Shown one piece after another: positions 5,696-19,289 of a DNA stretch of 50,138 nt. Origin of the DNA: Alphaproteobacteria bacterium. GTDB taxonomy: Bacteria > Pseudomonadota > Alphaproteobacteria > Thalassobaculales > Thalassobaculaceae. The notes beneath the pieces were generated by a model. That model did no database searches. It was not told the DNA's origin and saw nothing but the letters and a program-made list of their open reading frames with translations. The DNA lies in assembly GCA_013203465.1 (NCBI GenBank), contig JABMNR010000006.1, forward strand, positions 1-50,138, given 5' to 3'. Position 1 is the stretch's first letter. Each line of letters begins with the position of its first letter. The position numbers and the translations under genes were made by a program.

Positions 5696-6151
5696 TCAGC
5701 TCTCCGGTATCCGGCTCGGCACCACCCGTTCCAGATAGCTCGAATAATCCGTCGACGCCGGCGTATAGGGAGTGTCGAACAGCGGGCTGCCCATGACGAA
5801 ATCGGCGGTGGTGTGGTTGCAAGCCAGCACGATGTTGTACACCGTCGACAGCCGGACCAGGGCCTTGACGTCGACGTCGTGCGGCATCGCCGACATCGGA
5901 TCGGCGAAGAAGATCAAGGCGTCCAACCGGCCCTCGGCGATCAACGCCCCCATCTGCTGATCGCCGCCGAGCGGGCCGCTCTTCAAGCGGTGAATGTCGA
6001 GATCGAGCGCGTCGGCCAGCATCGCGCCGGTGGTGCCGGTGGCCCACAACTCGTGCGCCGCCAATTGGTCGCGATGCTCCCGCGCCCAATCCAGCAGTTC
6101 GGCCTTCTTGGCGTCATGGGCGACCAGGCCGATCCGCTTGCGCGCCTGCAT
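5696..6151 (-). CDS. mgsA: Methylglyoxal synthase
   Basis: The 151-residue protein matches MgsA closely: the N-terminal IGLVAHDAKK with His12, SGPLGGDQQMGA with catalytic Asp64, and MPHDVDVKALVR with His91 and Asp94. It converts dihydroxyacetone phosphate to methylglyoxal and phosphate in the cytoplasm. The ATG at 6151 (MQARKR) fits the usual length; a longer reading is not protein-like. It is last in a minus-strand group after a 2OG oxygenase, a KDG-type kinase and a cupin. Its presence beside KDG-type metabolism may act as an overflow for triose phosphate made from 2-keto-3-deoxy sugars. Confidence 0.93.
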   Translation of the reverse strand: MQARKRIGLVAHDAKKAELLDWAREHRDQLAAHELWATGTTGAMLADALDLDIHRLKSGPLGGDQQMGALIAEGRLDALIFFADPMSAMPHDVDVKALVRLSTVYNIVLACNHTTADFVMGSPLFDTPYTPASTDYSSYLERVVPSRIPES

Positions 6152-6189
6152 CAGTCCCGCTCCGGTTTGCGGTGCCGCGCCGGATCGGC

Positions 6190-6702
6190 TCACCGGATGA
6201 ACTGGTCGACGTACTCGGCGCCCAGCCCGACCTCGGTGTAGTGCGCACGGCACATGTCGATCTTGGCGAACACGTCCTCGAAGCCGGTGCTGTTGCCCTG
6301 CTCGTCGACGTAATACATGCAGCCGGCGATGTTGAAGAAGGTGATCATCTCCGCGCAATCCTCGTCGACTACCAGGGTGTGGGTCTCGCCCGGCGGCTCG
6401 AACACGTAGGAGCCCTCGGTGGCGATCCAGTCATGCTCCAGATAGCGCCACTGCCCCTTGAGCACGAAGCCGTGCACCGGGGCGGGGTGCAGATGCCGGC
6501 TCAGCACGCCGGACTTGCGCACCCGCAGCAGGTTGCACCAGCCGCCGTTCAACGTGTTGAACATCAGCGGCCGGAACCAAACGTTGGCCGCCTGCGGCAC
6601 CCAGACCCGCTCATCCTCGGGGATCGCTGTCTCGACGATCTCCATCGGCGACAGCGGATGGGTCGAAGCCGGACGCTCGGTCTTGACGGCGGTTACGCTC
6701 AT
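6190..6702 (-). CDS. Cupin-fold dioxygenase-like protein (2,4'-dihydroxyacetophenone dioxygenase family)
   Basis: The 170-residue single-domain cupin has the metal-binding stretch SRHLHPAPVHGFVLKGQW and the second cupin motif SYVFEPPGETHTLVV. The order and the WRYLEHDW segment recall the DAD family, Fe(II) enzymes that cleave an aliphatic C-C bond beside a carbonyl. I take the ATG at 6702 because a GGAG lies 9 bases upstream; an ATG at 6717 would put the start ahead of that site. It lies 38 bp before mgsA and 58 bp after the kinase gene, all on the minus strand. Whether it is a dioxygenase, isomerase or binding protein cannot be settled. Confidence 0.8.
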   Translation of the reverse strand: MSVTAVKTERPASTHPLSPMEIVETAIPEDERVWVPQAANVWFRPLMFNTLNGGWCNLLRVRKSGVLSRHLHPAPVHGFVLKGQWRYLEHDWIATEGSYVFEPPGETHTLVVDEDCAEMITFFNIAGCMYYVDEQGNSTGFEDVFAKIDMCRAHYTEVGLGAEYVDQFIR

Positions 6703-6760
6703 CGTTCGGGTCTCCAAAAATCGGTGATGGGATCAGTTTAGCCAACTCACCGCCAGGTAT

Positions 6761-7708
6761 TCACGGCAAAAGCGCCACGACATCGGTGCGCGTTGGGATC
6801 GGCGCCACGGCACCATAACCGGTGGTGGTCAGCGCCGCCGCCACCCCGGCATAGCGCGCGGCGGTGAACGGGTCGTCGCCGGCCGCCAGCCGGGCCAGGA
6901 ACGCGCCGTCGAAAGTGTCACCGGCCCCGGTGGCGTCGACCGGCTCGACCGGATGCGGCCCCAGCCTCTCGCGCCGGTCGGCGGTGGCGATCAACGCGCC
7001 CGCCTCCCCCATCTTCAGCGCCACCACGCGCGGCCCGCGCGCCAGATAGGCGTCGACGATGGCGTCCGGCTCCTCGATGCCCAGCAACACGCGGGAGTCG
7101 TCCAGCGACGGCAGCGCGATGGTGCAGCGTTCCATCGCCCCGTGCATCACCGCCCGCGCCGTGTCCAGCGACCACAGCTTGAGCCGCAAATTAGTGTCGT
7201 AGGCGACCTCGCACCCGGCGACCCGCGCCGCCTCGATCAGCGCGAAGCCGGCGTCACGCGGCCCCTCGCCCACCGCTTGGCTAATGCCCGAGAGCTGCAC
7301 GATCCGGGTGCGCGGCAACAGATCCAGCGGCAGGTCGTCCGAGCGGTAGCAGCTAGCCGCCGAGCCGGCGCGGTAATAGGCGAAATCGCGGCCGGCCGGC
7401 GACGGGGTGATGATGTAAAGCCCGGTCGGCGCGGTGGGATCGGTCAGGACCGGGGTGTGATCCACCTCTTCCCGCGTCCACAGCGCCCGCAGCTCGCGGC
7501 CGAAAGCATCGTCACCGACGGCGGAGGCATAGGCGACCCGCGCGCCCTGCCGGGCGGCGGCGACCGCGCAGTTCGAGGTGTCGCCGCCGTATCCCGCGCG
7601 GTAGGTCGGTGCCCCGTCCGAACCGCCGCCGTTGCCCGTCGTGTCGATCCGGGTCAACTCCATCAGCGGCTCGCCGAAGCACAGTAGGTCGATCTCGCGA
7701 TCGGTCAT
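6761..7708 (-). CDS. PfkB-family sugar kinase, probably 2-keto-3-deoxygluconate kinase
   Basis: The 315-residue ribokinase-fold protein has the N-terminal LLCFGEPLMELT and GGDTSNCAVAAARQG (substrate loop), and the PfkB signature DATGAGDTFDGAFLARL with the catalytic Asp near residue 255. The GEPLME start and TGLYI, YYRAGSAAS segments are typical of KDG kinases, which phosphorylate 2-keto-3-deoxygluconate to KDPG, but other keto-deoxy sugars cannot be excluded. It begins 4 bp after the 2OG oxygenase stop, so the genes are cotranscribed. Together with the RraA/HpaI aldolase operon across the divergent promoter, it suggests catabolism of sugar acids. Confidence 0.85.
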   Translation of the reverse strand: MTDREIDLLCFGEPLMELTRIDTTGNGGGSDGAPTYRAGYGGDTSNCAVAAARQGARVAYASAVGDDAFGRELRALWTREEVDHTPVLTDPTAPTGLYIITPSPAGRDFAYYRAGSAASCYRSDDLPLDLLPRTRIVQLSGISQAVGEGPRDAGFALIEAARVAGCEVAYDTNLRLKLWSLDTARAVMHGAMERCTIALPSLDDSRVLLGIEEPDAIVDAYLARGPRVVALKMGEAGALIATADRRERLGPHPVEPVDATGAGDTFDGAFLARLAAGDDPFTAARYAGVAAALTTTGYGAVAPIPTRTDVVALLP

Positions 7709-7712
7709 GGGA

Positions 7713-8459
7713 TCAATCGATCTCCTGCACGATGGATATTTGCAGCAACCGTCTCGACGTCCCGCTCAGGTTCTTGGGCACACCGTGAAACGAGACATTG
7801 CTGCGCGCGAAGGCCAGGCACCGGTTGGCGCGGTACGGAACGCGCGCCGCCTCCTCCATGGTCTCGAACGGCACATAGTCGACGCCGTCGCTGTGAAAGC
7901 CAGGCTTGAGTGGGCGATAGAGCGCCGTGCCCAAGGCTTCGGGATCGCCGGGGCGGGCCAGATAGATCAGAACGGTCACCAGCTTGACCGCGCCATCGGT
8001 ATGCGGCGGCAGGGCATAGCCCTCCACGTCCACGATCAACTCGATCGCGGTCCGCACCCGCAGATCCTCGGGGCGCATACCCGAGGTCACGGCGATCCGC
8101 TTGCCGATGATGCGGCGGAATAGCCACAACCACGCCTCGGCCACCGGCCGCGCCGACAACACCGCCGCCAGATGCCGCAGCACCGGATCGTTCTCCGCCA
8201 TCGGATGCACCGGCTCGGTCAACGCCACGATGCGCCGCTCGTCGGGATAACGGCCGCGATGCCCGGCGCTCTTGCGCACCATCGCCTCCGGCTCCGGCAC
8301 CGTCGCCATCACCGCCTCGAACAACGCCGGCGGCAACAGATCGTCGCCGACCGCATGGCTGAACGGGGTGGCAACCTCTTCCAGGCTCCGAATGCGCGCC
8401 GCGAGCGCCGCCACGTCGGCATCGAGGTCCAGGCGATTAATGGCCGCTGTGTCGTTCAC
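7713..8459 (-). CDS. 2-oxoglutarate/Fe(II)-dependent oxygenase
   Basis: The 248-residue protein has a jelly-roll 2OG oxygenase motif: HTDGAVK (His and Asp iron ligands) in LPPHTDGAVKLVTVLIYL, then SFHGVPKNLSGTSRRLL with the distal His and the 2OG-binding Arg. I chose the GTG at 8459 because an AGGGG sits seven bases before it; an in-frame ATG at 8483 and a longer start at 8528 have poorer sites. It leads the minus-strand group with the kinase, cupin and mgsA. The hydroxylated substrate is unknown; the SFHGVP segment is common in oxygenases found in sugar and polysaccharide clusters, a weak hint. Confidence 0.85.
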   Translation of the reverse strand: MNDTAAINRLDLDADVAALAARIRSLEEVATPFSHAVGDDLLPPALFEAVMATVPEPEAMVRKSAGHRGRYPDERRIVALTEPVHPMAENDPVLRHLAAVLSARPVAEAWLWLFRRIIGKRIAVTSGMRPEDLRVRTAIELIVDVEGYALPPHTDGAVKLVTVLIYLARPGDPEALGTALYRPLKPGFHSDGVDYVPFETMEEAARVPYRANRCLAFARSNVSFHGVPKNLSGTSRRLLQISIVQEID

Positions 8460-8621
8460 GTGATTTCCCCTGTCACGGCGCATGCTATGAACCCGCCCGG
8501 CGATATCCCTGTCAAGCAAGGCGCGCACCCTCTGGCGGTCCGCGTATACGCCCTGCTAGGCTACCGCCATCACGTTCGGGGCCGGCCGGTCTCGATCCAT
8601 ACCGAACCAGGGACCAAGACA

Positions 8622-9338
8622 ATGACCGAGATCACGGCGATCGAGATCACGGCGGCCGACCTTGAGCGGCTGACCGAATGGGACACGCCCACCATCTGCA
8701 ACGGGCTGGAGCTGACCAACCCGGAGCGGCGCGCCACCGGCTTCACCACCGGCGTCATGGTGTGCGCGTTTCCCGAGCTGAAACCGATCTGCGGCTATGC
8801 CCGCACCGCGACCATCCGCGCCGTCGCGCCGGCCAGCCGCAGCGCCGCCGAGAACATGGCCGCACGCCAGAGCTATTACGAATACGTCGCCGGCCACCCC
8901 GGCCCGACCGTGGTGGTGATCCAGGATCTGGACGCCGAGCCTGGCTTCGGCGCCTTCTGGGGCGAGGTGAACACCGCCATCCACAAGGGGCTGGGCGCGC
9001 TGGGCGTGGTGACCGACGGCTCGATCCGCGATCTCGACGCCTGCGCCCCCGGTTTTCAGCTCTTGGCGCGCAAGGTCGGGCCGAGCCACGCCCATGTCCA
9101 CGCGGTCGACACCGGCGGCCAGGTGAACATCTTCGGCATGGTGGTGCAGGACAACGACATCATCCACGCCGACCGACACGGCGCCGTCGTGGTGCCCCGT
9201 GACGCGGTCAAGAAACTGCCCGCCGCGATCGACCTGCTGACCCGCCGGGAAGCCGTCATCCTGGAGGCGGCGCGGGCGCCCGGGTTCGACATCGACAAGC
9301 TCAAGGCGGCGATGGGCCAGTCGTCCGACATTCACTGA
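8622..9338 (+). CDS. RraA-family protein / 4-hydroxy-4-methyl-2-oxoglutarate aldolase-like
   Basis: The 238-residue protein has the RraA fold: DTPTICNGLE at the start, ICGYARTATIRAV, and GVVTDGSIRDLDA, which carries the conserved Gly-x-Arg-Asp of HMG/CHA aldolases that bind divalent metal and pyruvate enolate. Members either cleave 4-hydroxy-2-oxo acids or act as oxaloacetate decarboxylases, while E. coli RraA itself inhibits RNase E. Catabolic context favours the enzyme role. The ATG at 8622 is preceded by AGGGA nine bases upstream. It is the first gene of the six-gene plus-strand operon, 162 bp from the divergent 2OG oxygenase. Confidence 0.85.
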   Translation: MTEITAIEITAADLERLTEWDTPTICNGLELTNPERRATGFTTGVMVCAFPELKPICGYARTATIRAVAPASRSAAENMAARQSYYEYVAGHPGPTVVVIQDLDAEPGFGAFWGEVNTAIHKGLGALGVVTDGSIRDLDACAPGFQLLARKVGPSHAHVHAVDTGGQVNIFGMVVQDNDIIHADRHGAVVVPRDAVKKLPAAIDLLTRREAVILEAARAPGFDIDKLKAAMGQSSDIH

Positions 9339-9349
9339 CGCGGGGTAAC

Positions 9350-10321
9350 ATGACCACGAATAAGAAGAAGGTTCTGATCCTCGGCCCGGTGCACGCCGAC
9401 GGCATGGCGCTGTTCGACGGCCGCGACGACGTGGAAGTCGAGGTGCTGCACGACATCTCGCCCGAGAACGTGATCCGGCACATTCCCGGCGTGCATGGCG
9501 TCGGCGTGCGGGTCGCCAAGATCGACAAGGCGGTGATCGACGCCGCCGACAGTCTGAAAATCGTCTCGCGCCATGGGGTCGGCTATGACGCGGTGGACGT
9601 GGCGGCCTTGAACGCGCGCAACATCCCGCTGGCCATCGCCCCGCGCGCCAACGCGCCCTCGGTGGCCGAGCAGGCGATGATGTACCTGCTGGCGTTGGCC
9701 AAACAGCTTCCGGCCTATGACAAGCTGGTGCGCGCCGGCGACTGGAACCAGCGGTCCACGATCCAGGGGGTCGACCTGGACGGCCGGACTTTGTTGGTGA
9801 TCGGGCTCGGGCGCATCGGCTCGCGCGTGGTCAAGCGGGCGCGGGCCTTCGACATGCGGGTGCTCGGCTACGATCCCTATCTGGAACCCTCGGCAATCGC
9901 GGCCCTCGGCGCCGAGCCGGTGGCCGATTTCCGCGCCGTGCTGGGCGAGGTCGACGCGGTCACCGTGCACTGCCCGCGCAACGAGGAGACCATCGGGTTG
10001 CTCGGGGCCGCCGAGTTGGCGGCGTTGCGGCCGGGCGCCTTGGTGGTGAACTGCGCCCGTGGCGGCCTCATCGACGAAGCGGCGCTGTTGGACGCCGTGC
10101 GCTCGGGACAGGTCAGCGGTGCCGGCATGGACGTGTTCGACGAGGAACCGGCGCTGGATCATCCGTTCTTCGCCGAGCCGCGCATCCTGATGACCCCGCA
10201 TTCCGCCGGGATCAGCCTGGAAGCGTCCAAGCGCTCGGCCTATCAGACCATCGAAAACATCCTGGCGGCGCTGGACGGCACGCTCGATCCCGCCGTCGTC
10301 GTCAACAAGGAAGTTCTTTAA
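9350..10321 (+). CDS. D-isomer-specific 2-hydroxyacid dehydrogenase
   Basis: The 323-residue protein has the two-domain fold of the PGDH/glyoxylate reductase family: the GLGRIGSRV dinucleotide motif near residue 147, the NCARGG arginine and the TPHSAG histidine, the usual catalytic Arg/His pair. The Glu is in the FDEEPALDHPFF stretch. It should interconvert a D-2-hydroxy acid and a 2-oxo acid with NAD(P). It begins 11 bp after the RraA-like gene and is followed 28 bp later by the HpaI-type aldolase, so it probably acts on a shared intermediate such as a D-hydroxy acid formed from aldolase cleavage. Confidence 0.9.
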   Translation: MTTNKKKVLILGPVHADGMALFDGRDDVEVEVLHDISPENVIRHIPGVHGVGVRVAKIDKAVIDAADSLKIVSRHGVGYDAVDVAALNARNIPLAIAPRANAPSVAEQAMMYLLALAKQLPAYDKLVRAGDWNQRSTIQGVDLDGRTLLVIGLGRIGSRVVKRARAFDMRVLGYDPYLEPSAIAALGAEPVADFRAVLGEVDAVTVHCPRNEETIGLLGAAELAALRPGALVVNCARGGLIDEAALLDAVRSGQVSGAGMDVFDEEPALDHPFFAEPRILMTPHSAGISLEASKRSAYQTIENILAALDGTLDPAVVVNKEVL

Positions 10322-10349
10322 GAACCCGCTTCACACGGAGGAATGCCCC

Positions 10350-11120
10350 ATGGATAGCCGATTGCACGACGTTTGGGCCGCCGACAAAGGCGCGTTCAAC
10401 GGGTGGCTTTCGATCCCGTCGACCGTCACCACCGAAATCGCCGCGTTGCAGGATTACGACAGCCTGACCATCGATCTTCAGCACGGCTTGGTCGACTACC
10501 AGGCGGCGCTGCAGATGATGCAGGCCGTACACGGCTACGGCAAGACCGTGCTCGCCCGGGTGCCGTGGAACGAGCCCGGCATCATCATGAAGCTGCTGGA
10601 CGGCGGGGCGCTGGGCATCATTTGTCCGATGATCAACACCGCCGAGGAGGCCGAGCGTTTCGTCGGCGCCTGCCAGTACGCGCCGCGCGGCTACCGCTCG
10701 TCGGGGCCGACCCGGGCCGGGCTGATCTATCCCGACTACTTCAAGCAGGCCAACGACACCATCGTCACCCTGGCGATGATCGAGACGGTGCAGGCGGTGC
10801 AGAACCTGGACGCCATCCTGAAGACCCCGAACCTGACGGGGGTTTATGTCGGGCCGGGCGATCTGGCGGTATCGATGGGCAAGCCGCCATCGCTCGACCA
10901 CACCGATCCCATCATGGTCGCGACGATCGACGGCGTCCTGGCCAAGGTCAAGGCGGCGGGGCTGAAATGCGGCATGCACTGCATGAACCCGCCCTACATG
11001 GTCGAGGCGATCAAGAAGGGCTTCGATTTCGTCACCCTGTCCAGCGACGTGCGCCTGATGACCGCCGCCCAGGTCGAGGGTGTCGGCGCGTTCCGCAAGG
11101 CCGGTGGAGGCAATCGATGA
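10350..11120 (+). CDS. HpcH/HpaI aldolase family protein (2-keto-3-deoxy acid aldolase type)
   Basis: The 256-residue class II aldolase is of the HpaI family. Its motifs are FNGWLSIPS near the start, LDGGALGIICPMINTAEEAE with the metal/acid residues, a PTRAGL segment, and VYVGPGDLAVSMG with the conserved GPxDL. The family cleaves 4-hydroxy-2-oxo acids to pyruvate and an aldehyde, using Mg or Mn. An excellent site, GGAGG, precedes the ATG by eight bases. Its stop overlaps the next start as ATGA, so translation is coupled with the Ldh gene. It is the third gene of the operon and the second aldolase. Confidence 0.9.
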   Translation: MDSRLHDVWAADKGAFNGWLSIPSTVTTEIAALQDYDSLTIDLQHGLVDYQAALQMMQAVHGYGKTVLARVPWNEPGIIMKLLDGGALGIICPMINTAEEAERFVGACQYAPRGYRSSGPTRAGLIYPDYFKQANDTIVTLAMIETVQAVQNLDAILKTPNLTGVYVGPGDLAVSMGKPPSLDHTDPIMVATIDGVLAKVKAAGLKCGMHCMNPPYMVEAIKKGFDFVTLSSDVRLMTAAQVEGVGAFRKAGGGNR

Positions 11121-12262
11121 CCGGAGTGCGGCGCGACGGCGATCAGGTCTTCGTTCCGGTCGATGTCATCCTGGCGCTGGGCGCCAGGGTGTTCGAGGCC
11201 GCCGGTTCGTCCCCGACCGAGGCCAGGACCATCATCACCCGCCTGTCCGGGGCCAATCTGCGCGGCCATGACAGCCATGGGGTGATCCGCATTCCGCGCT
11301 ATGTTCAGTGGGCGCAGGACGGCATCCAGGTACCGAACCAGACGGTAAAGGTGCTGCAGGACCAGCCCAGCTTCGCGGTGATCGACGGGCGGTTCGGTTT
11401 CGGCCAGTCGGTCGGCGAACAAGCCGTCGATATCGGCATCGCCAAGGCCAAGCAGCACGGAGTCGCCATGACCGCGCTGCGCAACAGCGGCCATCTCGGG
11501 CGGATCGGCGACTGGGCCGAGCGGGCGGCGGCCGAGAACATCGTTTCGGTGCACATGGTCAACGTGCGCGGCTCGCTGATCGTCGCCCCGTTCGGCGGCA
11601 TCGACCGGCGCGGCAGCACCAACCCGTTCTGCGCCGGCATTCCCGTCGCGGGCCAGGAGCCGATCATTCTCGACTTCGCCACCTCGGTGGTGGCCGAGGG
11701 TAAGGCGCTGGTCGCCCTCAAGGGCGGCAAACCGCTGCCGCCGGACGCCCTGGTCGACGCCGACGGCACCGTCACCGGCGACCCGCGCCCGCTCTACGGC
11801 GAGGTGCCGCCGGGCACCTATCCCGACCCGAACAACGGTCCCGGTGCCTTGCGCGCGTTCGGCGAGCACAAGGGGTTCGGCATGAACTTCCTGATGGAGA
11901 TGATGGCCGGCGCCTTGACCGGCTCCGGCACCGCCGGGGAGTTGGGCGAGACACAGCGGCGGCGGTTCTGCAACGGCATGCTGTCGTTCTACGTCGATCT
12001 GGACGCCGTGTCCGGCACCCCGACCGAAAGCGGCCATCCGTTCGCCACCGAGGTGATGAACTACGCCGCCTTCGTGAAATCGGCACGGCCGACCGAACCC
12101 GGCGGCAAGGTGCTGATCCCCGGCGAGAAGGAGCGCATGACCCTGGCCGAACGGATGAAAACCGGCCTGCCGCTCGCCGCCGAAGCCTGGGACGACATCG
12201 TGGCCACGGCACGTGGACTGGGGATCAACGATGTGGACGCATTGATCGGGGCTGCCAGATGA
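11117..12262 (+). CDS. Ldh family oxidoreductase (malate/L-lactate/ureidoglycolate dehydrogenase type)
   Basis: The 381-residue protein matches the non-Rossmann MDH2/Ldh family: the RGHDSHGVIRIPRY segment with the invariant HDSHG, NSGHLGRIGDWAERAA with His and Gly nucleotide-binding residues, and the NPFCAGIP and FGEHKGFGMNFLMEMMAGAL stretches. It oxidises an L-2-hydroxy acid with NAD(P). The ATG at 11117 overlaps the previous stop (ATGA). One base separates its stop from the next ATG, so it is tightly coupled. It sits beside a D-specific dehydrogenase, so the two may invert a hydroxy-acid centre between D and L forms. Confidence 0.92.
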   Translation: MTGVRRDGDQVFVPVDVILALGARVFEAAGSSPTEARTIITRLSGANLRGHDSHGVIRIPRYVQWAQDGIQVPNQTVKVLQDQPSFAVIDGRFGFGQSVGEQAVDIGIAKAKQHGVAMTALRNSGHLGRIGDWAERAAAENIVSVHMVNVRGSLIVAPFGGIDRRGSTNPFCAGIPVAGQEPIILDFATSVVAEGKALVALKGGKPLPPDALVDADGTVTGDPRPLYGEVPPGTYPDPNNGPGALRAFGEHKGFGMNFLMEMMAGALTGSGTAGELGETQRRRFCNGMLSFYVDLDAVSGTPTESGHPFATEVMNYAAFVKSARPTEPGGKVLIPGEKERMTLAERMKTGLPLAAEAWDDIVATARGLGINDVDALIGAAR

Positions 12263-12263
12263 C

Positions 12264-13709
12264 ATGACCACCACCGTCATCCGCGACTGCGCCTGGATCG
12301 TCGCCTGGGACGCGGAGGCCGGATCGCACGTCTACTTGCGTGGCGGCGATGTGGCGTTCGACGAGTCCATTATTCTGGCGGTCGGTGGCCGCTGGGACCG
12401 ACCGGCGGAGCGGGAGATCGACGGCCGTGCCCGCATGGTCATGCCGGGTTTGGTCAACCTGCACGCCCACCCCATGGGCGGCTCGCTCGACAAAGGCACC
12501 TTCGACGAGGTCGGCGCACCGATGCAGTGGGGCCACGCACTGTACCACCTGTCGCCGCTGCTGGAGGACGACGCCGAGGGCATCGCCGCCAACACCAAGT
12601 TGGCGATCGCCGAGTTGCTGTTGTCCGGGGTAACCACCATGGTCGATCTCGGCCGGGCGCGCGACGGCTGGCTTGACCTGATCGCCGACACCGGCATCCG
12701 CGGGGTCATTGGCGCCGGTTTTCGCGAGGCGCAGTGGGTCGATGTCGGCGGCCACCGGGTTGACTACGCCTGGGACAAGCCGGCCGGCCGCCGCGCGTTC
12801 GACCGGGCGCTCGCCACGGTCGACGCCGCCGAACGCCATCCCAGCGGCCGGCTGACCGGGATGATCGCGCCGGCGCAGATCGACACGGTGTCCGAAGGGT
12901 TGCTGCGCGACGCCCACGCCGCCGCCGTCGAGCGCGGCATGAAGCTGCAGGTCCACGCCGCCCAAACCATGGTCGAGGTGATGGAGATGTTGCGCCGCCA
13001 TGGCATGGGGGCGGTGAGCTGGCTCGACCATCTCGGCCTGCTCGACGAGCGGGTGATCCTGGGCCACGGCATCTATCTCGACCACCACACCTGGAATCCG
13101 CTGCGCACCGCGCGGGAGCTGCCGATGCTGGCCGAGCGCGGGGTGACCGTCGCCCACTGCCCCACGGTATTCGCCCGCACCGGCATGACGTTGCAGACCT
13201 TTGGCCGTTACGTGAAGGTCGGCGTGCGCATGGGCATCGGCACCGACAGCTTCCCGCACAACATGCTGGAGGAGCTGCGTCACGTCGGCTACTTCGCGCG
13301 GATCACCGCCGGCGACGTGCACGATCACAGCACGACCGACGTGTTCAACGCCGCCACGATCGGCGGGGCGGGCGCGTTGGGCCGGGGCGATTTAGGACGC
13401 CTCACCCTCGGCGCCCGGGCGGATCTGGTGCTGGTCGATGTCGAACATCCGGCCATGCGCCCGACGCGGGAGCCGATCCGCTCGCTGATCATCCAGGCGG
13501 CGGAGCGGGTGGTCACCGACGTGTTCGTCGACGGCACGCCGGTGGTGCGAGACGGGCGGTGCCTGACCATCGATCTCGACGCCGAAGCGGCGGCGGTCGA
13601 GGACGCCCAGGCGCGGGCGCTGGAACGGCTGCCGTCTCTGGACGCCCGCCGCCGCACCATCGATGATATCGCCCCGATGACCTACCCCGTGCGTTCGGAG
13701 GCGTTATGA
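12264..13709 (+). CDS. Amidohydrolase, TRZ/ATZ-type chlorohydrolase/deaminase family
   Basis: The 481-residue protein has a beta-barrel metal hydrolase fold: GLVNLHAHPMGG (metal HxH), LQVHAAQ (third His), a later GHGIYLD (fourth His region), and GTDSFPHNMLEE with the catalytic Asp. It resembles SsnA/AtzA/8-oxoguanine deaminase relatives, which remove an amine, halide or similar leaving group from a heterocycle or guanidine; the substrate cannot be assigned. It starts one base after the Ldh stop and ends in an ATGA overlap with the MetE-like gene. It is translated within the sugar/hydroxy-acid operon, an unusual partner for aldolases. Confidence 0.88.
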   Translation: MTTTVIRDCAWIVAWDAEAGSHVYLRGGDVAFDESIILAVGGRWDRPAEREIDGRARMVMPGLVNLHAHPMGGSLDKGTFDEVGAPMQWGHALYHLSPLLEDDAEGIAANTKLAIAELLLSGVTTMVDLGRARDGWLDLIADTGIRGVIGAGFREAQWVDVGGHRVDYAWDKPAGRRAFDRALATVDAAERHPSGRLTGMIAPAQIDTVSEGLLRDAHAAAVERGMKLQVHAAQTMVEVMEMLRRHGMGAVSWLDHLGLLDERVILGHGIYLDHHTWNPLRTARELPMLAERGVTVAHCPTVFARTGMTLQTFGRYVKVGVRMGIGTDSFPHNMLEELRHVGYFARITAGDVHDHSTTDVFNAATIGGAGALGRGDLGRLTLGARADLVLVDVEHPAMRPTREPIRSLIIQAAERVVTDVFVDGTPVVRDGRCLTIDLDAEAAAVEDAQARALERLPSLDARRRTIDDIAPMTYPVRSEAL

Positions 13710-14860
13710 GCCGAATCCTGGTCACCCACGCCGGCTCGCTGCCCCGGCCGAAGCGGTTGGTGCAGCTTTACGCCTGGCGGGTCGACGGCAAGCCGATCGA
13801 CGAGGCCGAACTCAACGCTCTCGGCGATGCCGCCACCCGTGACATCGTCGCCCGGCAGAGGGACGTCGGCATCGACATCCCAAGCGATGGCGAGCAGGTG
13901 CGCGAGGGGTTTTTTCTCTACGTCCAGCGCCGCATGTCCGGTTTCGGCGGGCATTGGCAGCGGCCGAGCGGGCGCGAGCTGAGCGCCTATCCCGAGTTCG
14001 CCAAGGCACGGCAGGAGATGCTCCAGGGCCGGGTCGCGGTCAGCAATTTCGCCCCGCCCATGGCGATCGGCCCGGTCGCCCACACCAATCCGGCGGCCAA
14101 CGAGGCCGAGCTGACGACTTTCGAGGCGGCGCTGGACGCCGTCGGGCGGGAGCGTTTCAGCGACGCGTTCATGACCGCCCCCTCGCCGGGCATCCTGGCC
14201 ATGGCCCTGAAGAACGATTTCTACCCGGACGACGACAGCTACCTCACCGCTCTGGCCGAAGCCATGCGGGTCGAGTACCGGGCCGCCATCAAGCACGGGC
14301 TGATGCTGCAGATCGACGCGCCGGACTTGGCGCTGGAACGGCATGTCAGCTTCGCCGACCGGCCGATCGGCGAGTTCGTTGCCTTCGTCGACCGGGTGAT
14401 CGCGGCCATCAACCGGGCGCTCGACGGGCTGCCGAGGGACCGGGTGCGGTTGCACGTCTGCTGGGGCAACTATGAATCGCCGCACGATCAGGACGTGGCG
14501 CTGGCGGCGATCCTGCCCTCGCTGCTGCAAGCCAGGGTCGGCACCTTCATGCTGCCGTTCGCCAACCCCCGGCACCAGCACGAGATCAAGGTGTTCAAGG
14601 ACATCCCGCTGGCCCCGGACCAGACCCTGATCGTCGGCGCGATCGACACCCAGACCGCTTATGTCGAGCATCCCGAGGTGGTGGCCGAGCGGCTGGAGCG
14701 CGCCGCCGAGGCGGTCGGCGATCCGGCGCGCATCCAGGCCGGCACCGATTGCGGTTTCGACACCTCGGCCGGCATGGGCCGGGTCACCCCGGACGTGGTC
14801 TGGGCCAAGTTCCGCGCCCTGCGCGAGGGCGCCGATCTGGCGAGCAAGCGGCTGTTTTAA
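13706..14860 (+). CDS. MetE C-terminal-domain-like (cobalamin-independent methionine synthase / epoxyalkane:CoM transferase superfamily)
   Basis: The 384-residue protein contains only the zinc-binding catalytic barrel of MetE, without the N-terminal half. VTHAGSLPRPKRL opens it, LHVCWGNYE (His and Cys) and GTDCGFDTSAGMG (second Cys) are likely zinc ligands, and QIDAPDLALE carries conserved acids. Stand-alone members are methylcobalamin- or methylfolate-linked transferases, or epoxyalkane:CoM transferases. It begins in an ATGA overlap with the amidohydrolase and ends the operon. The substrate is unknown; a thiol- or C1-transfer step linked to the amidohydrolase product is the simplest guess. 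Confidence 0.85.
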   Translation: MSRILVTHAGSLPRPKRLVQLYAWRVDGKPIDEAELNALGDAATRDIVARQRDVGIDIPSDGEQVREGFFLYVQRRMSGFGGHWQRPSGRELSAYPEFAKARQEMLQGRVAVSNFAPPMAIGPVAHTNPAANEAELTTFEAALDAVGRERFSDAFMTAPSPGILAMALKNDFYPDDDSYLTALAEAMRVEYRAAIKHGLMLQIDAPDLALERHVSFADRPIGEFVAFVDRVIAAINRALDGLPRDRVRLHVCWGNYESPHDQDVALAAILPSLLQARVGTFMLPFANPRHQHEIKVFKDIPLAPDQTLIVGAIDTQTAYVEHPEVVAERLERAAEAVGDPARIQAGTDCGFDTSAGMGRVTPDVVWAKFRALREGADLASKRLF

Positions 14861-14869
14861 TGTTTCAGG

Positions 14870-14889
14870 AGGCGCTTAGGCGGGCGCCT
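14870..14889. terminator. Possible hairpin between convergent genes
   Basis: AGGCGC-TTAGGCGG-GCGCCT forms a six-base stem with an eight-base loop just past the MetE-like stop (14860) and overlapping the last codons of the convergent pmpB. There is no T tract, so it may only weakly end either transcript. Confidence 0.3.
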
Positions 14890-15313
14890 TGGCCGAACGC
14901 GGCGGTGCCCGCAGGAAGCTGGCAATCCCCATACCCACCAGCATCGCCGGCACGAACACCAGGGTTCCGGGCGCCAGCAGCGGCAACGCCGTCCACGCCG
15001 GCCCCGGACAGAAGCCGCCGAGCCCCCAGCCGACCCCGAACAGCGCCGCACCGGTCAGCAGCGGGGTGTCGAGATCGACCCGGCTCGGAATCTCGAAGCG
15101 CGGTAGCAGCACCGGCTGCTCGCGGCGCCAGGCCAGCCGGTAGCCGACGAACGCCGTCACCACCGCCCCGCCCATGACGAACGCCAAGCTCGGGTCCCAA
15201 GCGCCGAACAGATCGAGGAAATTCAGCACTTTGGCCGGGTCCGCCATGCCCGAGACCACAAGCCCGATCCCGAACAGCAACCCGGCGGCAAAGCCGAACA
15301 GCGCGCGCGTCAT
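14876..15313 (-). CDS. YeeE/YedE family sulfur transporter, C-terminal half (PmpB-like)
   Basis: The 145-residue membrane protein has about four hydrophobic segments. TRALFGFAAGLLFGIGLVVSGMADPAKVLNFLD is a typical start, and GLGGFCPGP carries the conserved Cys of these thiosulfate/sulfur-compound channels. It pairs with the preceding gene: together they equal one YeeE/YedE protein split in two. The ATG at 15313 overlaps the pmpA stop as ATGA, so the halves are separate genes with coupled translation, not a frameshift. The pair likely moves a reduced sulfur species, by family analogy. Confidence 0.88.
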   Translation of the reverse strand: MTRALFGFAAGLLFGIGLVVSGMADPAKVLNFLDLFGAWDPSLAFVMGGAVVTAFVGYRLAWRREQPVLLPRFEIPSRVDLDTPLLTGAALFGVGWGLGGFCPGPAWTALPLLAPGTLVFVPAMLVGMGIASFLRAPPRSAKAPA

Positions 15314-15756
15314 GACGCTATCCCCGCAACCAGGTGACGGAGAACGAACACGGTGGCAACCCCGGTGCCGAGAAACGTCACCGTGGCGACCAGCGACCGG
15401 GTCGACAGCCGCGCCAGCCCGCACACCCCATGGCCGCTGGTGCAGCCCGAGCCCCACACCGTGCCGAAGCCCACCAGCAGACCGGCCAACGCCATCACCA
15501 CCGGATTGTCGCTCACGGTCTGCGCCACCGGCTCGCCGGTGACCGCCTGGACCAGCAGCGGCGCCGCCACCAGCCCGGCGATGAACGCCAATCGCCACAG
15601 CCAGTCCTCGCGTTGGCCGGGCAGCGCGCCGGTCGAAATCCCGGCGATACCGGCGATGCGGCCGAACAGCGTCATCACCAGGACCGCCGAAAGCCCTATG
15701 AGAACCCCGCCGATCAGCGAAGCCCACGGGGTGAACTCCGTCGCTACTACCATCAT
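15310..15756 (-). CDS. YeeE/YedE family sulfur transporter, N-terminal half (PmpA-like)
   Basis: The 148-residue membrane protein has several transmembrane segments; FGTVWGSGCTSGHGVCGLARLSTRS carries the conserved Cys-Thr-Ser-Gly-His-Gly-Val-Cys-Gly signature of YeeE/YedE proteins, where Cys residues handle the sulfur compound. It is the first of a two-gene unit with PmpB (ATGA overlap). In alphaproteobacteria such pairs are often under a sulfide-responsive ArsR-type repressor; no such regulator gene is nearby. An inverted repeat sits about 35 bp upstream of the ATG. Confidence 0.88.
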   Translation of the reverse strand: MMVVATEFTPWASLIGGVLIGLSAVLVMTLFGRIAGIAGISTGALPGQREDWLWRLAFIAGLVAAPLLVQAVTGEPVAQTVSDNPVVMALAGLLVGFGTVWGSGCTSGHGVCGLARLSTRSLVATVTFLGTGVATVFVLRHLVAGIAS

Positions 15757-15860: not shown

Positions 15861-16955
15861 TCAGACATCCACCCCGCGCCGCACCGCGCGCGGGAATGCC
15901 CGGGCCAGCACCGTCGGCAGGCCGCCGCCCCACTGGTCGTCGAGATAACGCCGGAAGTCGTAAATCGTCACCGCCGGGCAGACCTCGACCTCCAGCAGCC
16001 ACGGTGTGCCGTCCCCGCCGAGCCGGATATCGACGGAGAACAGATCACGCAACCCGAACCCGGCGGCCAGCCGGCGGGTGATACCGGCGATGCGTCCGGC
16101 GATTGTTGGCTCCGCGTCGGCCAGATCGACCAAACTTGGCTGGAACGCCGCCCCGCCCGCCAGCGACGCGGTGGCCGTGCCGTCGGTGTCGGCGAGCCCC
16201 GACAGGGTGGCGTTATCGGCCATGGTCATGAAGGCACCAGCCGCCTGCCCGCCGCCGCCGGTCTCCAGGCGGTACACCCCAAGGCGCGTCAACGCCGGAT
16301 CGTCCTCCACCGCCATGTACGACACCCGCACGTCGGCGCCGGGGACAAAGGCCTGAACCACCGCGTCGTCGCGGTATCGCGCGAAAATACGCCGCGACCG
16401 ATCGGCGGCCGCCGCGAGGGTCTCGACCTTGCTGTCCGGCCAGATGCCGATCTTGGCACCCAGGGTGTTCGGCTTGACGAACCACGGCCCCGGCCCCTCG
16501 GGCGGCGGTGTCAGCCACACGCCATCGCGCATCACCCCGAACGCCGGCGCCGCGACACCAAGCATCTCGGCCACGACCCCGGTCTTCGCCTTATCCTGGG
16601 CGATGTTCTGCGCCTGGACCGAACAGCCGAACACCGGCGCGCCGATCATCCGGGCGAACGACACCGCCCCGCTGCCCCGGTAGTAGCGGATGCCGTCGGT
16701 GACCGACCACACCACGGTCTCGGTCGGCCGCTCGGCCAGCCAGTCGAGCCAAACGGCGGGCTCGGTCGGGTCAGCGATGCGCCCCTCCACCCCAACGGCA
16801 TCGAGAGTCCCGAGGATCGGCTCCACCTGGTCTTGCAGATCGGTCGCCTGGCTCAGGTAGAAGGCGATTTCCTCGGCCACCTCGGGCGTGAATCCAGCAT
16901 CCCGCAGCCGGGCGGCGCATCCCTCCTTGCGCTCGGCCAGAATCAGCGCCCTCAC
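15861..16955 (-). CDS. ATP-grasp domain protein, carboxylate-amine ligase-like
   Basis: The 364-residue protein looks like a D-Ala-D-Ala-ligase-type ATP-grasp. An N-terminal substrate domain (1-120) holds FGCSVQAQNIAQDKAKT; the central part has PWFVKPNTLGAKIGI with the lysine for ATP binding, VVQAFVPGADVRVSYM, and LFSVDIRLGGDGTPWLLEVEVCPA, the metal-binding Asp/Glu pair near the end. It would join an amine or thiol to a carboxylate using ATP. The stop of the metallo-beta-lactamase gene upstream overlaps its start by four bases (16952-16955), so the two act together. The product is unknown; a peptide-like conjugate that the hydrolase later cleaves is possible. Confidence 0.8.
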   Translation of the reverse strand: MRALILAERKEGCAARLRDAGFTPEVAEEIAFYLSQATDLQDQVEPILGTLDAVGVEGRIADPTEPAVWLDWLAERPTETVVWSVTDGIRYYRGSGAVSFARMIGAPVFGCSVQAQNIAQDKAKTGVVAEMLGVAAPAFGVMRDGVWLTPPPEGPGPWFVKPNTLGAKIGIWPDSKVETLAAAADRSRRIFARYRDDAVVQAFVPGADVRVSYMAVEDDPALTRLGVYRLETGGGGQAAGAFMTMADNATLSGLADTDGTATASLAGGAAFQPSLVDLADAEPTIAGRIAGITRRLAAGFGLRDLFSVDIRLGGDGTPWLLEVEVCPAVTIYDFRRYLDDQWGGGLPTVLARAFPRAVRRGVDV

Positions 16956-17698
16956 ACCGCCTTGCTCCGCCGGTAGACCTCGGTCAACGCCCGCATCCGC
17001 GCGCCGTCGAACACGCCGAAATGGCCGGGCAGCACCCGGTCGACCTCCAAGGCGTCCAACCGCCGGTGCGTGGCCAGCAGGTCGTCGATGTCAGCACCGG
17101 GAATGGCGTCCAAAATCTCACCCTCATAGACCACATCGACCGAGAACAAGATTCGGCGCGCCGCCTCGTACAGGCACAGATGGCCGGGCGAGTGCCCTGG
17201 GGTGTGCAAGGCGATCAGCCTACGCCCGCCGAGATCGATCACGCCGCCATCGTCCAGCAAGCCGGTGGCCGGTGCCGGCGGGATGCGCCACGCGCGCGGA
17301 TCGAAACCACCCCCGACCCCACCCGCCATCGGATCGAAGGCCAGCGACTCCGGATAGTCCAACAGATAGGGGAGTATTTGCGTCGGCTCCGGCGCCGGGT
17401 CGTCGAGCACGCCCGCCTCCAGTGGATGCACCCAGCGCTCGGCGAACTGATGTAGGCCGCCGATGTGATCGAAGTGGGTGTGGCTGGCGACGGCGACGAT
17501 CGGCCGACCGAACAGCGCCGGCACGTGATCGGCCAGCGGCACCAGGCCCCAGCCGGCGTCCAGCACCAGCCGCCGTTCGGTGCCGTCAACCACCCAGATC
17601 GCGCCCCGGCCACCGGGGCTGGCGTACAGCTCTTCGATCCGCCAAATGCCGTCTTGGTGATCCTCGACCCGGATCACCCCATCGTCGAATGCTTTCAT
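16952..17698 (-). CDS. Metallo-beta-lactamase-fold hydrolase
   Basis: The 248-residue protein has the HxHxDH metal motif in VASHTHFDHIGG near residue 75, ALHTPGHSPGHLCLYE with the next His, SVDVVYEG with the bridging Asp, and GHFGVFDG at the C-terminus. The VVDGTERRLVLDAGWG start and short, one-domain form fit glyoxalase II- or thioesterase-like members. It is coupled by a four-base overlap to the ATP-grasp gene. The rpmF terminator lies just upstream, so this pair has its own promoter in the short space between 17699 and 17721 or is read through at a low level. Confidence 0.85.
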   Translation of the reverse strand: MKAFDDGVIRVEDHQDGIWRIEELYASPGGRGAIWVVDGTERRLVLDAGWGLVPLADHVPALFGRPIVAVASHTHFDHIGGLHQFAERWVHPLEAGVLDDPAPEPTQILPYLLDYPESLAFDPMAGGVGGGFDPRAWRIPPAPATGLLDDGGVIDLGGRRLIALHTPGHSPGHLCLYEAARRILFSVDVVYEGEILDAIPGADIDDLLATHRRLDALEVDRVLPGHFGVFDGARMRALTEVYRRSKAV

Positions 17699-18054: not shown

Positions 18055-18149
18055 ACGCCGAACACGGTTTGCGCCACCAAAGCGTCACTTGTCCCGCACA
18101 CTCGAATCAACTACCCACAAATGCCTTTTTGGCGTATCCGAGCTCCATC

Positions 18150-19289
18150 ATGGCAACCGTGTTCAAAAATGCCCGGCTCGTCCTGCCCGACGCCGTGGTG
18201 TCCGGCTCCCTCAACGTTGAGGGTGGCCGCATCGCCGCCGTCGACGACAGCCCGGCCGCGCCGAACGGTGCGCTCGATCTCGACGGCGATTACCTGCTTC
18301 CGGGCCTGATCGACCTGCATACCGACAACGTAGAGAAACACTACGAACCCCGGCCGCAGGTGTACTGGGATCCGGTGGCCGCCGCCGTGAACCACGACGC
18401 CCAGATCGCCACCTCCGGCATCACCACGGTCTACGACTCGGTCTGTCTCGGCCTTACCAGCAAGGGCGAGCTGCGGTCCGAGCATATCCGTCCGATGATC
18501 GACGGCATCGCCCAGGCCCAGACCACCGGCATGCTGCGCACCGACCACCGGATTCATCTGCGGTGCGAGGTGACCGGCGCCGATGTGTTGGATCAGCTCA
18601 CCGCCTTCGACAACGACACCATGATCGGCCTGGTCTCGGTGATGGATCACGCGCCGGGCCAGCGCCAAACCGCCGATATGGACGTGTGGCGCCATATCAA
18701 GCGGGAGCACGACGGGCTGACCGAGGATGAGATCGAGCGCGAGTATGACCGTTTGACCCGCGCCTCGCGGGAGCTTGGACCCACGCAACGGTGGGCGGTG
18801 GCCGACTGGTCGCGGGCGCGGGCGTTCGGCTTGGCCAGCCACGACGACCAGACCGTCGCGCATGTCGCCGAATCGGCGGAGATCGGCTGCACCATCGCCG
18901 AGTTTCCCACCACGGTCGAGGCCGCCAAGGCGTCGCGCGACCACGGGCTGGCGGTGCTGATGGGCGGCCCCAACCTGGTGCGCGGGCGCTCGTCCTACGG
19001 CAACATCACCGCCCGCGACCTCGCCGAGCAAGGCCTGCTCGACATCGTGTCCTCGGACTACGTGCCGGCCAGCATGCTGCACGCGGCGTTCACCCTGGCC
19101 GACACGGTCACGGGCTGGGACCTGCCGCGGGCGGTGGCGACCATGACCGCGACCCCGGCCCGGGTCGCCGGGCTGGACGATCGCGGGCGGCTGGAGCCCG
19201 GGTTGCGGGCCGATCTGATCCGGGTGCGCCTGGTCGATGGCCGGCCGGTGGTGCGTGGCGTCTGGGTCGCCGGCGAGCGGGTGGTCTGA
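18150..19289 (+). CDS. phnM: PhnM-like phosphonate-pathway amidohydrolase (alpha-D-ribose 1-methylphosphonate 5-triphosphate diphosphatase)
   Basis: The 379-residue protein is a classic PhnM: LPGLIDLHTDNVEKHYEPRP (metal HxD motif near 53-60), GITTVYDSVCLG, HDDQTVAHV, and PNLVRGRSSYGNITARDLAEQGLLDIVSSDYVP. PhnM removes pyrophosphate from the ribosyl methylphosphonate triphosphate made by the C-P lyase machinery. Here none of phnG-L or phnJ lies nearby, so it is a solitary member, either supporting a complex encoded elsewhere or repurposed. The start at 18150 is preceded by a weak site. Confidence 0.88.
   Translation: MATVFKNARLVLPDAVVSGSLNVEGGRIAAVDDSPAAPNGALDLDGDYLLPGLIDLHTDNVEKHYEPRPQVYWDPVAAAVNHDAQIATSGITTVYDSVCLGLTSKGELRSEHIRPMIDGIAQAQTTGMLRTDHRIHLRCEVTGADVLDQLTAFDNDTMIGLVSVMDHAPGQRQTADMDVWRHIKREHDGLTEDEIEREYDRLTRASRELGPTQRWAVADWSRARAFGLASHDDQTVAHVAESAEIGCTIAEFPTTVEAAKASRDHGLAVLMGGPNLVRGRSSYGNITARDLAEQGLLDIVSSDYVPASMLHAAFTLADTVTGWDLPRAVATMTATPARVAGLDDRGRLEPGLRADLIRVRLVDGRPVVRGVWVAGERVV

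Follow-up and report, generated by a model that had tools for sequence, protein, structure and literature searches.

An inherited four-gene keto-acid unit, with an amidohydrolase and a MetE-like protein of altered metal site as apparent later additions, in an alphaproteobacterial operon

Several described systems share features with a tightly packed run of six genes at positions 8622-14860 of a 50,138-nucleotide stretch of alphaproteobacterial DNA (contig JABMNR010000006.1 of assembly GCA_013203465.1; hereafter the window). The genes, here called RRAA, DHDH, HPAI, LDH2, AMH, and METE, encode two aldolase-like proteins, two dehydrogenases, an amidohydrolase, and a relative of the methionine synthase MetE. 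In Paracoccus wurundjeri, a sulfofucose cluster combines an SlcC/ComC pair, a two-component sulfolactate racemase, with an aldolase of family PF03328 and a protein of family PF00294 (PMC12421959). The resemblance of this sulfofucose/sulfolactate cluster to the window extends to a PfkB-family gene, a PF03328 aldolase, and two 2-hydroxyacid dehydrogenases. The likeness of DHDH and LDH2 to SlcC and ComC concerns the kinds of enzyme only, and LDH2 fails the ComC model. RraA does not appear in the text of that paper, counterparts of AMH and METE were not seen in the extract that describes the cluster, and the SuyAB and dehydratase of the cluster were not seen beside the window operon, where no dedicated search for SuyAB was made.

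The described protein that METE most resembles is that of structure 3rpd (a selenomethionine-containing, B12-independent methionine synthase), which Price et al. (2021) call MesD (PMC7857596). Like METE, MesD is a single catalytic barrel without the folate half and carries the S/E/D substrate residues and the H, C, C zinc ligands. In contrast to MesD, METE has proline at the position of the glutamate zinc ligand, and the two proteins are 22-25% identical across alignments. Price et al. list His641, Cys643, Glu665, and Cys726 as the zinc ligands of Escherichia coli MetE and Ser433, Glu484, and Asp599 as its substrate residues, and mention that some MesC proteins carry Gly in place of Glu665, with zinc binding unexpected and another function possible (PMC7857596).

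RRAA has the PF03737 domain of the HMG/CHA aldolase, an RraA-family enzyme with an Arg123-Asp124 pair (PMC5065237), and contains the motif DGSIRD, read by eye, which resembles that pair. However, its scores against the NCBIfam models of 4-carboxy-4-hydroxy-2-oxoadipate aldolase are far below the cut-offs (28.4 versus 179 bits and, for LigK, 24.3 versus 304.5 bits). TRZ/ATZ-type amidohydrolases, such as members of PRK06151 and the atrazine chlorohydrolase 4v1x, share with AMH an H-x-H, H, H, D set of residues. In AMH these are H67, H69, H231, H268, and D328, which we take to be the metal ligands and which are present in all 22 aligned AMH sequences. Unlike these enzymes, AMH scores below the cut-off of the PRK06151 chlorohydrolase subfamily (343 versus 416 bits) and has Gln234, kept in 22 of 22 sequences, where 4v1x has Glu.

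The host genome is a 4.48-Mb draft related to marine Thalassobaculum; Thalassobaculum fulvum and Oceanibacterium hippocampi are among its nearest named relatives as judged by the METE gene. A preliminary description of the window had proposed a six-gene operon at this place, and Pfam families bear out the six co-directional open reading frames (ORFs) that fill 8622-14860 on the + strand. These are RRAA, an RraA-like aldolase/decarboxylase (8622..9338; PF03737, 1e-15); DHDH, a D-2-hydroxyacid dehydrogenase of the phosphoglycerate dehydrogenase-like kind (9350..10321; PF02826, 2-Hacid_dh_C, 1.8e-56); HPAI, an HpaI-type class II aldolase (10350..11120; PF03328, HpcH_HpaI, 1.9e-30); LDH2, an Ldh_2-family malate/L-lactate-type dehydrogenase (11117..12262; PF02615, 3.4e-92); AMH, a TRZ/ATZ-type amidohydrolase (12264..13709; PF01979, Amidohydro_1, 2.9e-37); and METE, a core-MetE-like protein with an altered zinc site (13706..14860; PF01717, Meth_synt_2, a weak match at 2.2e-5 and 24.3 bits versus a cut-off of 21). 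Read from the sequence, the first junctions are an 11-bp gap between RRAA and DHDH, a 28-bp gap between DHDH and HPAI, and an ATGA overlap between HPAI and LDH2. The last two genes had been described as coupled by overlaps, which holds for AMH and METE (a 4-bp ATGA overlap) but not for LDH2 and AMH, which are separated by a 1-bp gap. A crude gene caller based on guanine-plus-cytosine (GC) content picked five of the six genes, with third-position GC of 0.85-0.90. It passed over LDH2, although the call of that gene is secure because of its Pfam match. A scan of 8400-15100 for the sigma-70 consensus returned no sites where 0.9 were expected, which is of little weight for a GC-rich genome, and the terminator-like sites (three observed, 2.5 expected) are within chance.

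RRAA, DHDH, HPAI, and LDH2 are inherited as a unit within one alphaproteobacterial family, usually with a PfkB kinase gene in divergent orientation. HPAI has 46 matching places, distributed over 36 of 61 genomes (the host genome counted), and 20 of the 46 loci were fetched. Eighteen of these come from other genomes of the window's family, which holds Thalassobaculum, and in 17 of the 18 the four genes are contiguous and in the same order. At one family locus (L110) DHDH matches in two pieces, and at the 18th (L109) the contig ends after HPAI. The HPAI loci of other families, L106 and L111, have HPAI alone. RRAA orthologs of the related genera g12 and g3 are 83-87% identical. The preliminary view that the first four genes make a coherent hydroxy/keto-acid set is well matched by this conservation. 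The PfkB gene of the window (6761..7708, - strand; PF00294, 5.4e-51) is a conserved, divergent partner of the core, lying near RRAA on the opposite strand in 14 of the 18 family loci and also in two loci (G004 and G014) where the operon is split, as discussed below.

RRAA also has matches in 65 of 385 genomes of the class. None of 20 such loci fetched from outside the family carries the four-gene core; three have an LDH2-RRAA pair and one has the order METE-hydrolase-RRAA. We therefore rejected the possibility that the core is a widespread alphaproteobacterial unit, and as far as sampled it is a speciality of the family. Among solved structures, the chains nearest to DHDH are phosphoglycerate dehydrogenases, and the best relative of HPAI is the hydroxyketoacid aldolase 6r62 (9.8e-54). 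On a Variovorax plasmid, RraA precedes a gene with the annotation 4-hydroxy-2-oxovalerate aldolase, which offers a partial parallel.

AMH and METE lie outside the core unit in the relatives examined. At E 1e-12, neither gene has a match in any of the 18 family core loci. The stretch downstream from LDH2 was also compared with the window in four g12 and three g3 genomes, using loci that each retain at least one downstream marker (MBL, ATP-grasp, or PhnM-like), not all three everywhere, and the orthologous site in these seven genomes contains no AMH, no METE, and no counterpart of the YeeE/YedE-type pair that follows METE in the window. The 20 AMH loci fetched, which include one paralog from the host genome and several short contigs, contain no core gene and no METE. 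Searches of the family, the class, and plasmids found no AMH relative above 55% identity; the class-wide search used limits of E 1e-150 for AMH and 1e-90 for METE and scored the best few candidates per genome.

The distribution of METE is broader. Matches at E 1e-30 or better occur in 25 of the 61 genomes, own included, and because the near-full-length matches span 39-74% identity, they are not all orthologs. Two of 20 fetched METE loci (G004 and G014), both from one other genus, have the order HPAI-LDH2-METE. In these genomes RRAA-DHDH remain elsewhere, at the ancestral place beside PfkB, cupin, and methylglyoxal synthase genes, and thus the operon was split there with METE kept beside HPAI-LDH2. 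The retention of METE beside these two genes after the split favors some connection of METE with the core. The window groups with G004 and G014 in the METE tree (ultrafast bootstrap, UFBoot, 70) and with g12 in the HPAI and LDH2 trees (UFBoot 95 and 99, respectively); no g12 genome has a METE match in the 61-genome search. The METE linkage behind LDH2 is therefore likely to be older than the g1/g5 split, with weak tree support, and to have been lost later in g12, and AMH is likely an insertion at the LDH2-METE junction that is specific to the lineage of the window. Alternatively, the linkage of METE to HPAI-LDH2 may have arisen convergently. Among named METE loci (the best 80 of at least 548), there is no RRAA, and matches to HPAI, LDH2, and AMH are all at most 33% identical, the sole AMH match being at 30%.

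These gene-order comparisons, made over family loci, METE loci, and orthologous sites, lead us to reject a single conserved six-gene operon. The set seems less unified than its packing makes apparent, and would consist of an old four-gene family set and two later additions. The preliminary description had treated all six genes as one route and had named, as evidence that would refute this, the unlinking of the last two genes from the first four in related genomes. Such unlinking was found at every AMH locus and at most METE loci examined.

METE is a protein of 384 amino acids whose alignment to MetE is confined to the C-terminal half (residues 401-733 of 1xdj). The N-terminal, folate-binding half is not present, as had been claimed from the outset. 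An AlphaFold2 model of METE has a pLDDT (predicted local distance difference test) score of 93.9, and its best structural match is 3rpd (Z 38.0, root-mean-square deviation 2.1, 319 aligned residues, 25% identity), followed in the ranking by full-length MetE chains with Z of 27-34 over their C-terminal half. An alignment of 97 rows was assembled from METE relatives, from which two of the 80 named loci were excluded (stop, X, or too short), and in which some proteins are repeated under two names and the window is present twice. The equivalents of three zinc ligands (H250, C252, and C349) are found in all 97 rows, as are those of the homocysteine-binding residues (S11 and E63, placed by alignment, and D204, placed by conserved context only). 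The position of Glu665 is Pro in 91 rows, Ser in two, and Glu in four, the last being distant plasmid relatives. In METE this residue is Pro284, which falls on the zinc-ligand Glu in both phmmer alignments (to 3rpd and 1ypx). Thus, by the four-ligand test (His, Cys, Glu/Asp, Cys) of MetE, MesA, MesB, and MesD, METE keeps three ligands and has P284 as the fourth residue. Because three ligands and the thiol pocket are kept while Glu is changed to Pro, the clade is MetE-like in fold and pocket and altered at the metal.

We rejected METE as a classical methionine synthase, given that the folate half and a zinc ligand are missing. METE is probably not a standard methionine synthase, and the name "methionine synthase," under which more distant relatives are annotated in plasmid records, is probably wrong for the clade. 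MesX (PF08908) has no match in the host genome, in a search in which no control genome gave a match either. A PF01717 search of the same genome returned no match and missed METE itself, such that other weak MetE-like genes are possible. As judged by titles and abstracts, none of the open-licence papers found deals with this operon or with the METE clade.

The neighbors of METE at other loci look mostly catabolic, as judged by eye and from a few scans. The most regular context is an upstream gene for a pyridoxal phosphate (PLP) enzyme, found within 6 kb in 11 of the 80 named loci and directly before METE, with a gap of 14-81 bp, in nine. Three of the 11 PLP genes were scanned, and all pass the NCBIfam model of CuyA D-cysteate sulfo-lyase (521.8, 517.1, and 515.2 versus 450 bits); the others are assigned as CuyA-like by clustering only. 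Guanidines, betaines, and sulfonium compounds had been put forward as substrates and find no specific support here. The one recurrent clue points to sulfonate chemistry: given the CuyA-like gene directly before METE in nine of the 80 loci, organosulfur compounds are more promising candidates than guanidines or betaines. Genes for organic-acid transporters adjoin METE in five of the 80 loci (DctM in L196 and L197 and TctC in L160 and L171, by Pfam, and L203 by clustering only). At a locus of contig JAESSL010000154.1, an ORF that by eye resembles a second MetE-like protein is directly upstream of the METE ortholog.

In Ruegeria and Octadecabacter, a distant, Glu-type METE relative is flanked by a cupin gene on one side and a hydrolase-RraA pair on the other; in Ruegeria a methyltransferase gene separates it from the cupin gene. 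These loci also carry genes for a histidinol-dehydrogenase homolog, a short-chain dehydrogenase/reductase (SDR), and LacI. Two further loci, L237 and L244, have a similar arrangement by eye. Taken with the core operon, these Glu-type clusters indicate that RraA and MetE-like proteins meet in at least two arrangements. The run of hisD homolog, SDR, LacI, cupin-like, Glu-type METE, alpha/beta hydrolase, and RraA genes is annotated in L132 and L133 and read by eye in L237 and L244. A distant METE relative in Croceicoccus is situated beside an aminomethyltransferase-family gene, MTHFR, purU, and folD, and one Croceicoccus gene is presumably LigM-like.

Some relatives of AMH occur in operons for peptide-type ATP-binding cassette (ABC) transporters (L136 and L246, and by eye L113, L119, and L122) and near dihydroorotase or hydantoinase genes (L245 and L247). 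These contexts suggest that AMH may hydrolyze an imported nitrogen compound.

The explanation we favor, to which we assign an even chance, is a composite catabolic operon in which an inherited four-gene core was joined later by METE and last by AMH. DHDH and LDH2, which belong to different families, would interconvert both enantiomers of a 2-hydroxyacid via the 2-keto acid, by analogy with the SlcC/ComC pair acting on sulfolactate. HPAI, and perhaps RRAA, would split a 4-hydroxy-2-keto acid by retro-aldol cleavage into an aldehyde and either pyruvate or hydroxypyruvate. More tentatively, METE may use a zinc site with three ligands to bind homocysteine or another amino-acid thiol and may take over a methyl or different alkyl group from a substituted acid, which, once freed, would enter the core; AMH may hydrolyze a C-N bond in a related compound that is imported. 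Several observations weigh against this composite operon. A substrate is assigned to none of the six genes, whose functions are inferred. METE and the core are unlinked in 18 of the 20 METE loci fetched, and thus their shared operon may be incidental; the UFBoot value of 70 for METE of the window with G004 and G014 is weak. Its neighbors outside the family are very diverse across the 80 loci, the Glu-to-Pro change may abolish zinc binding, and two AMH relatives (L114 and L118) have no such transporter, dihydroorotase, or hydantoinase gene by eye. A broader proposal, which we put forward as a speculative one, is that the METE clade consists of widespread MetE-fold thiol alkyl-transferases with a three-ligand, Pro-substituted metal site. 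These would serve the catabolism of organosulfur compounds or methylated hydroxy-acids, with alkyl or sulfur removal coupled to keto-acid aldolase/dehydrogenase operons such as the present one and to CuyA operons of Acetobacteraceae, the group that includes Rhodopila and Acidisphaera. The comparison tells the conserved part of the locus (the four-gene keto-acid unit and the kinase) apart from the local part, and therefore helps to choose the genes that assays should address first. It further draws attention to a large MetE-like clade in which one canonical zinc ligand is missing and whose genes often neighbor catabolic ones, and the Pro-type clade is the most interesting part of the system.

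The close spacing of the genes, down to the 1-bp gap before AMH and the 4-bp overlap before METE, would also be expected of one six-step route in which AMH removes a nitrogen group, METE removes a methyl or thiol group, and the core degrades the carbon skeleton, and METE does stay behind HPAI-LDH2 in a second genus. However, no other locus examined pairs AMH with METE or with the core, and the core occurs without both genes in all 17 complete family loci, which makes this route unlikely. Still more doubtful is the idea that METE is only a passenger of the operon and works as an auxiliary methionine synthase or one-carbon sink. The fold and homocysteine-binding residues of METE are those of MetE and MesD, and a distant relative is found beside the one-carbon genes of Croceicoccus, but the fourth zinc ligand is lost in the METE clade, a MetH signature is present elsewhere in the host genome, and the METE neighbors in other genomes have a mostly catabolic look.

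The remaining alternative is an operon for a C3 sulfonate or sulfosugar acid, in which DHDH and LDH2 would be an SlcC/ComC-like pair that racemizes sulfolactate, HPAI would act as an aldolase on a keto-deoxy-sulfosugar acid, and the handling of sulfur would fall to METE and the YeeE pair. Members of PF00294 and PF03328 and homologs of SlcC and ComC occur together in the sulfofucose cluster (PMC12421959). The position of METE directly after CuyA-like genes, the YeeE pair in the same lineage-specific stretch, and the rank of L-sulfolactate dehydrogenase 2x06 as the third-best solved chain for LDH2 are in keeping with this idea. Yet LDH2 reaches only 163.4 bits against the NCBIfam L-sulfolactate dehydrogenase (ComC) model, whose cut-off is 500, and fits PRK10098 better (324.5 bits, itself below the cut-off of 336). 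The best CuyA match of the genome (331 versus 450 bits) is on another contig, and the match of YeeE to the thiosulfate transporter is weak (24.4 versus 400 bits). We consider the sulfonate assignment improbable as it stands.

Other features flank the composite operon. Upstream, on the - strand, a divergent ChrR-type cupin gene (6190..6717; PF12973, 3.4e-19) and a methylglyoxal synthase gene (5696..6163; NCBIfam PRK05234, 202.8 bits, above the cut-off of 84) are core partners in some genera. They lie near the core in three and six of the 18 family loci, respectively, as well as in both split loci. A 271-amino-acid ORF between PfkB and RRAA (7713-8528, - strand) has no match in Pfam or NCBIfam. 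Downstream, the YeeE/YedE-type pair comprises two short genes arranged tail to tail with METE (14876..15756, - strand). PF04143 matches in 15310-15756, and the second half (14876-15310), which has no NCBIfam match, was named by eye from its sequence. The pair shares the lineage-specific stretch of AMH and METE, and neither half was matched in the seven g12 and g3 loci. Next, at 15861-17698 on the - strand, are overlapping genes for an ATP-grasp-like protein, weakly like D-Ala-D-Ala ligase, and an MBL-fold hydrolase; the MBL gene is near the core in four of the seven g12 and g3 loci. An amidohydrolase gene at 18147-19289 (+ strand; Pfam Amidohydro_3), which we take to be PhnM, may be one gene of a phosphonate (C-P lyase) cluster.

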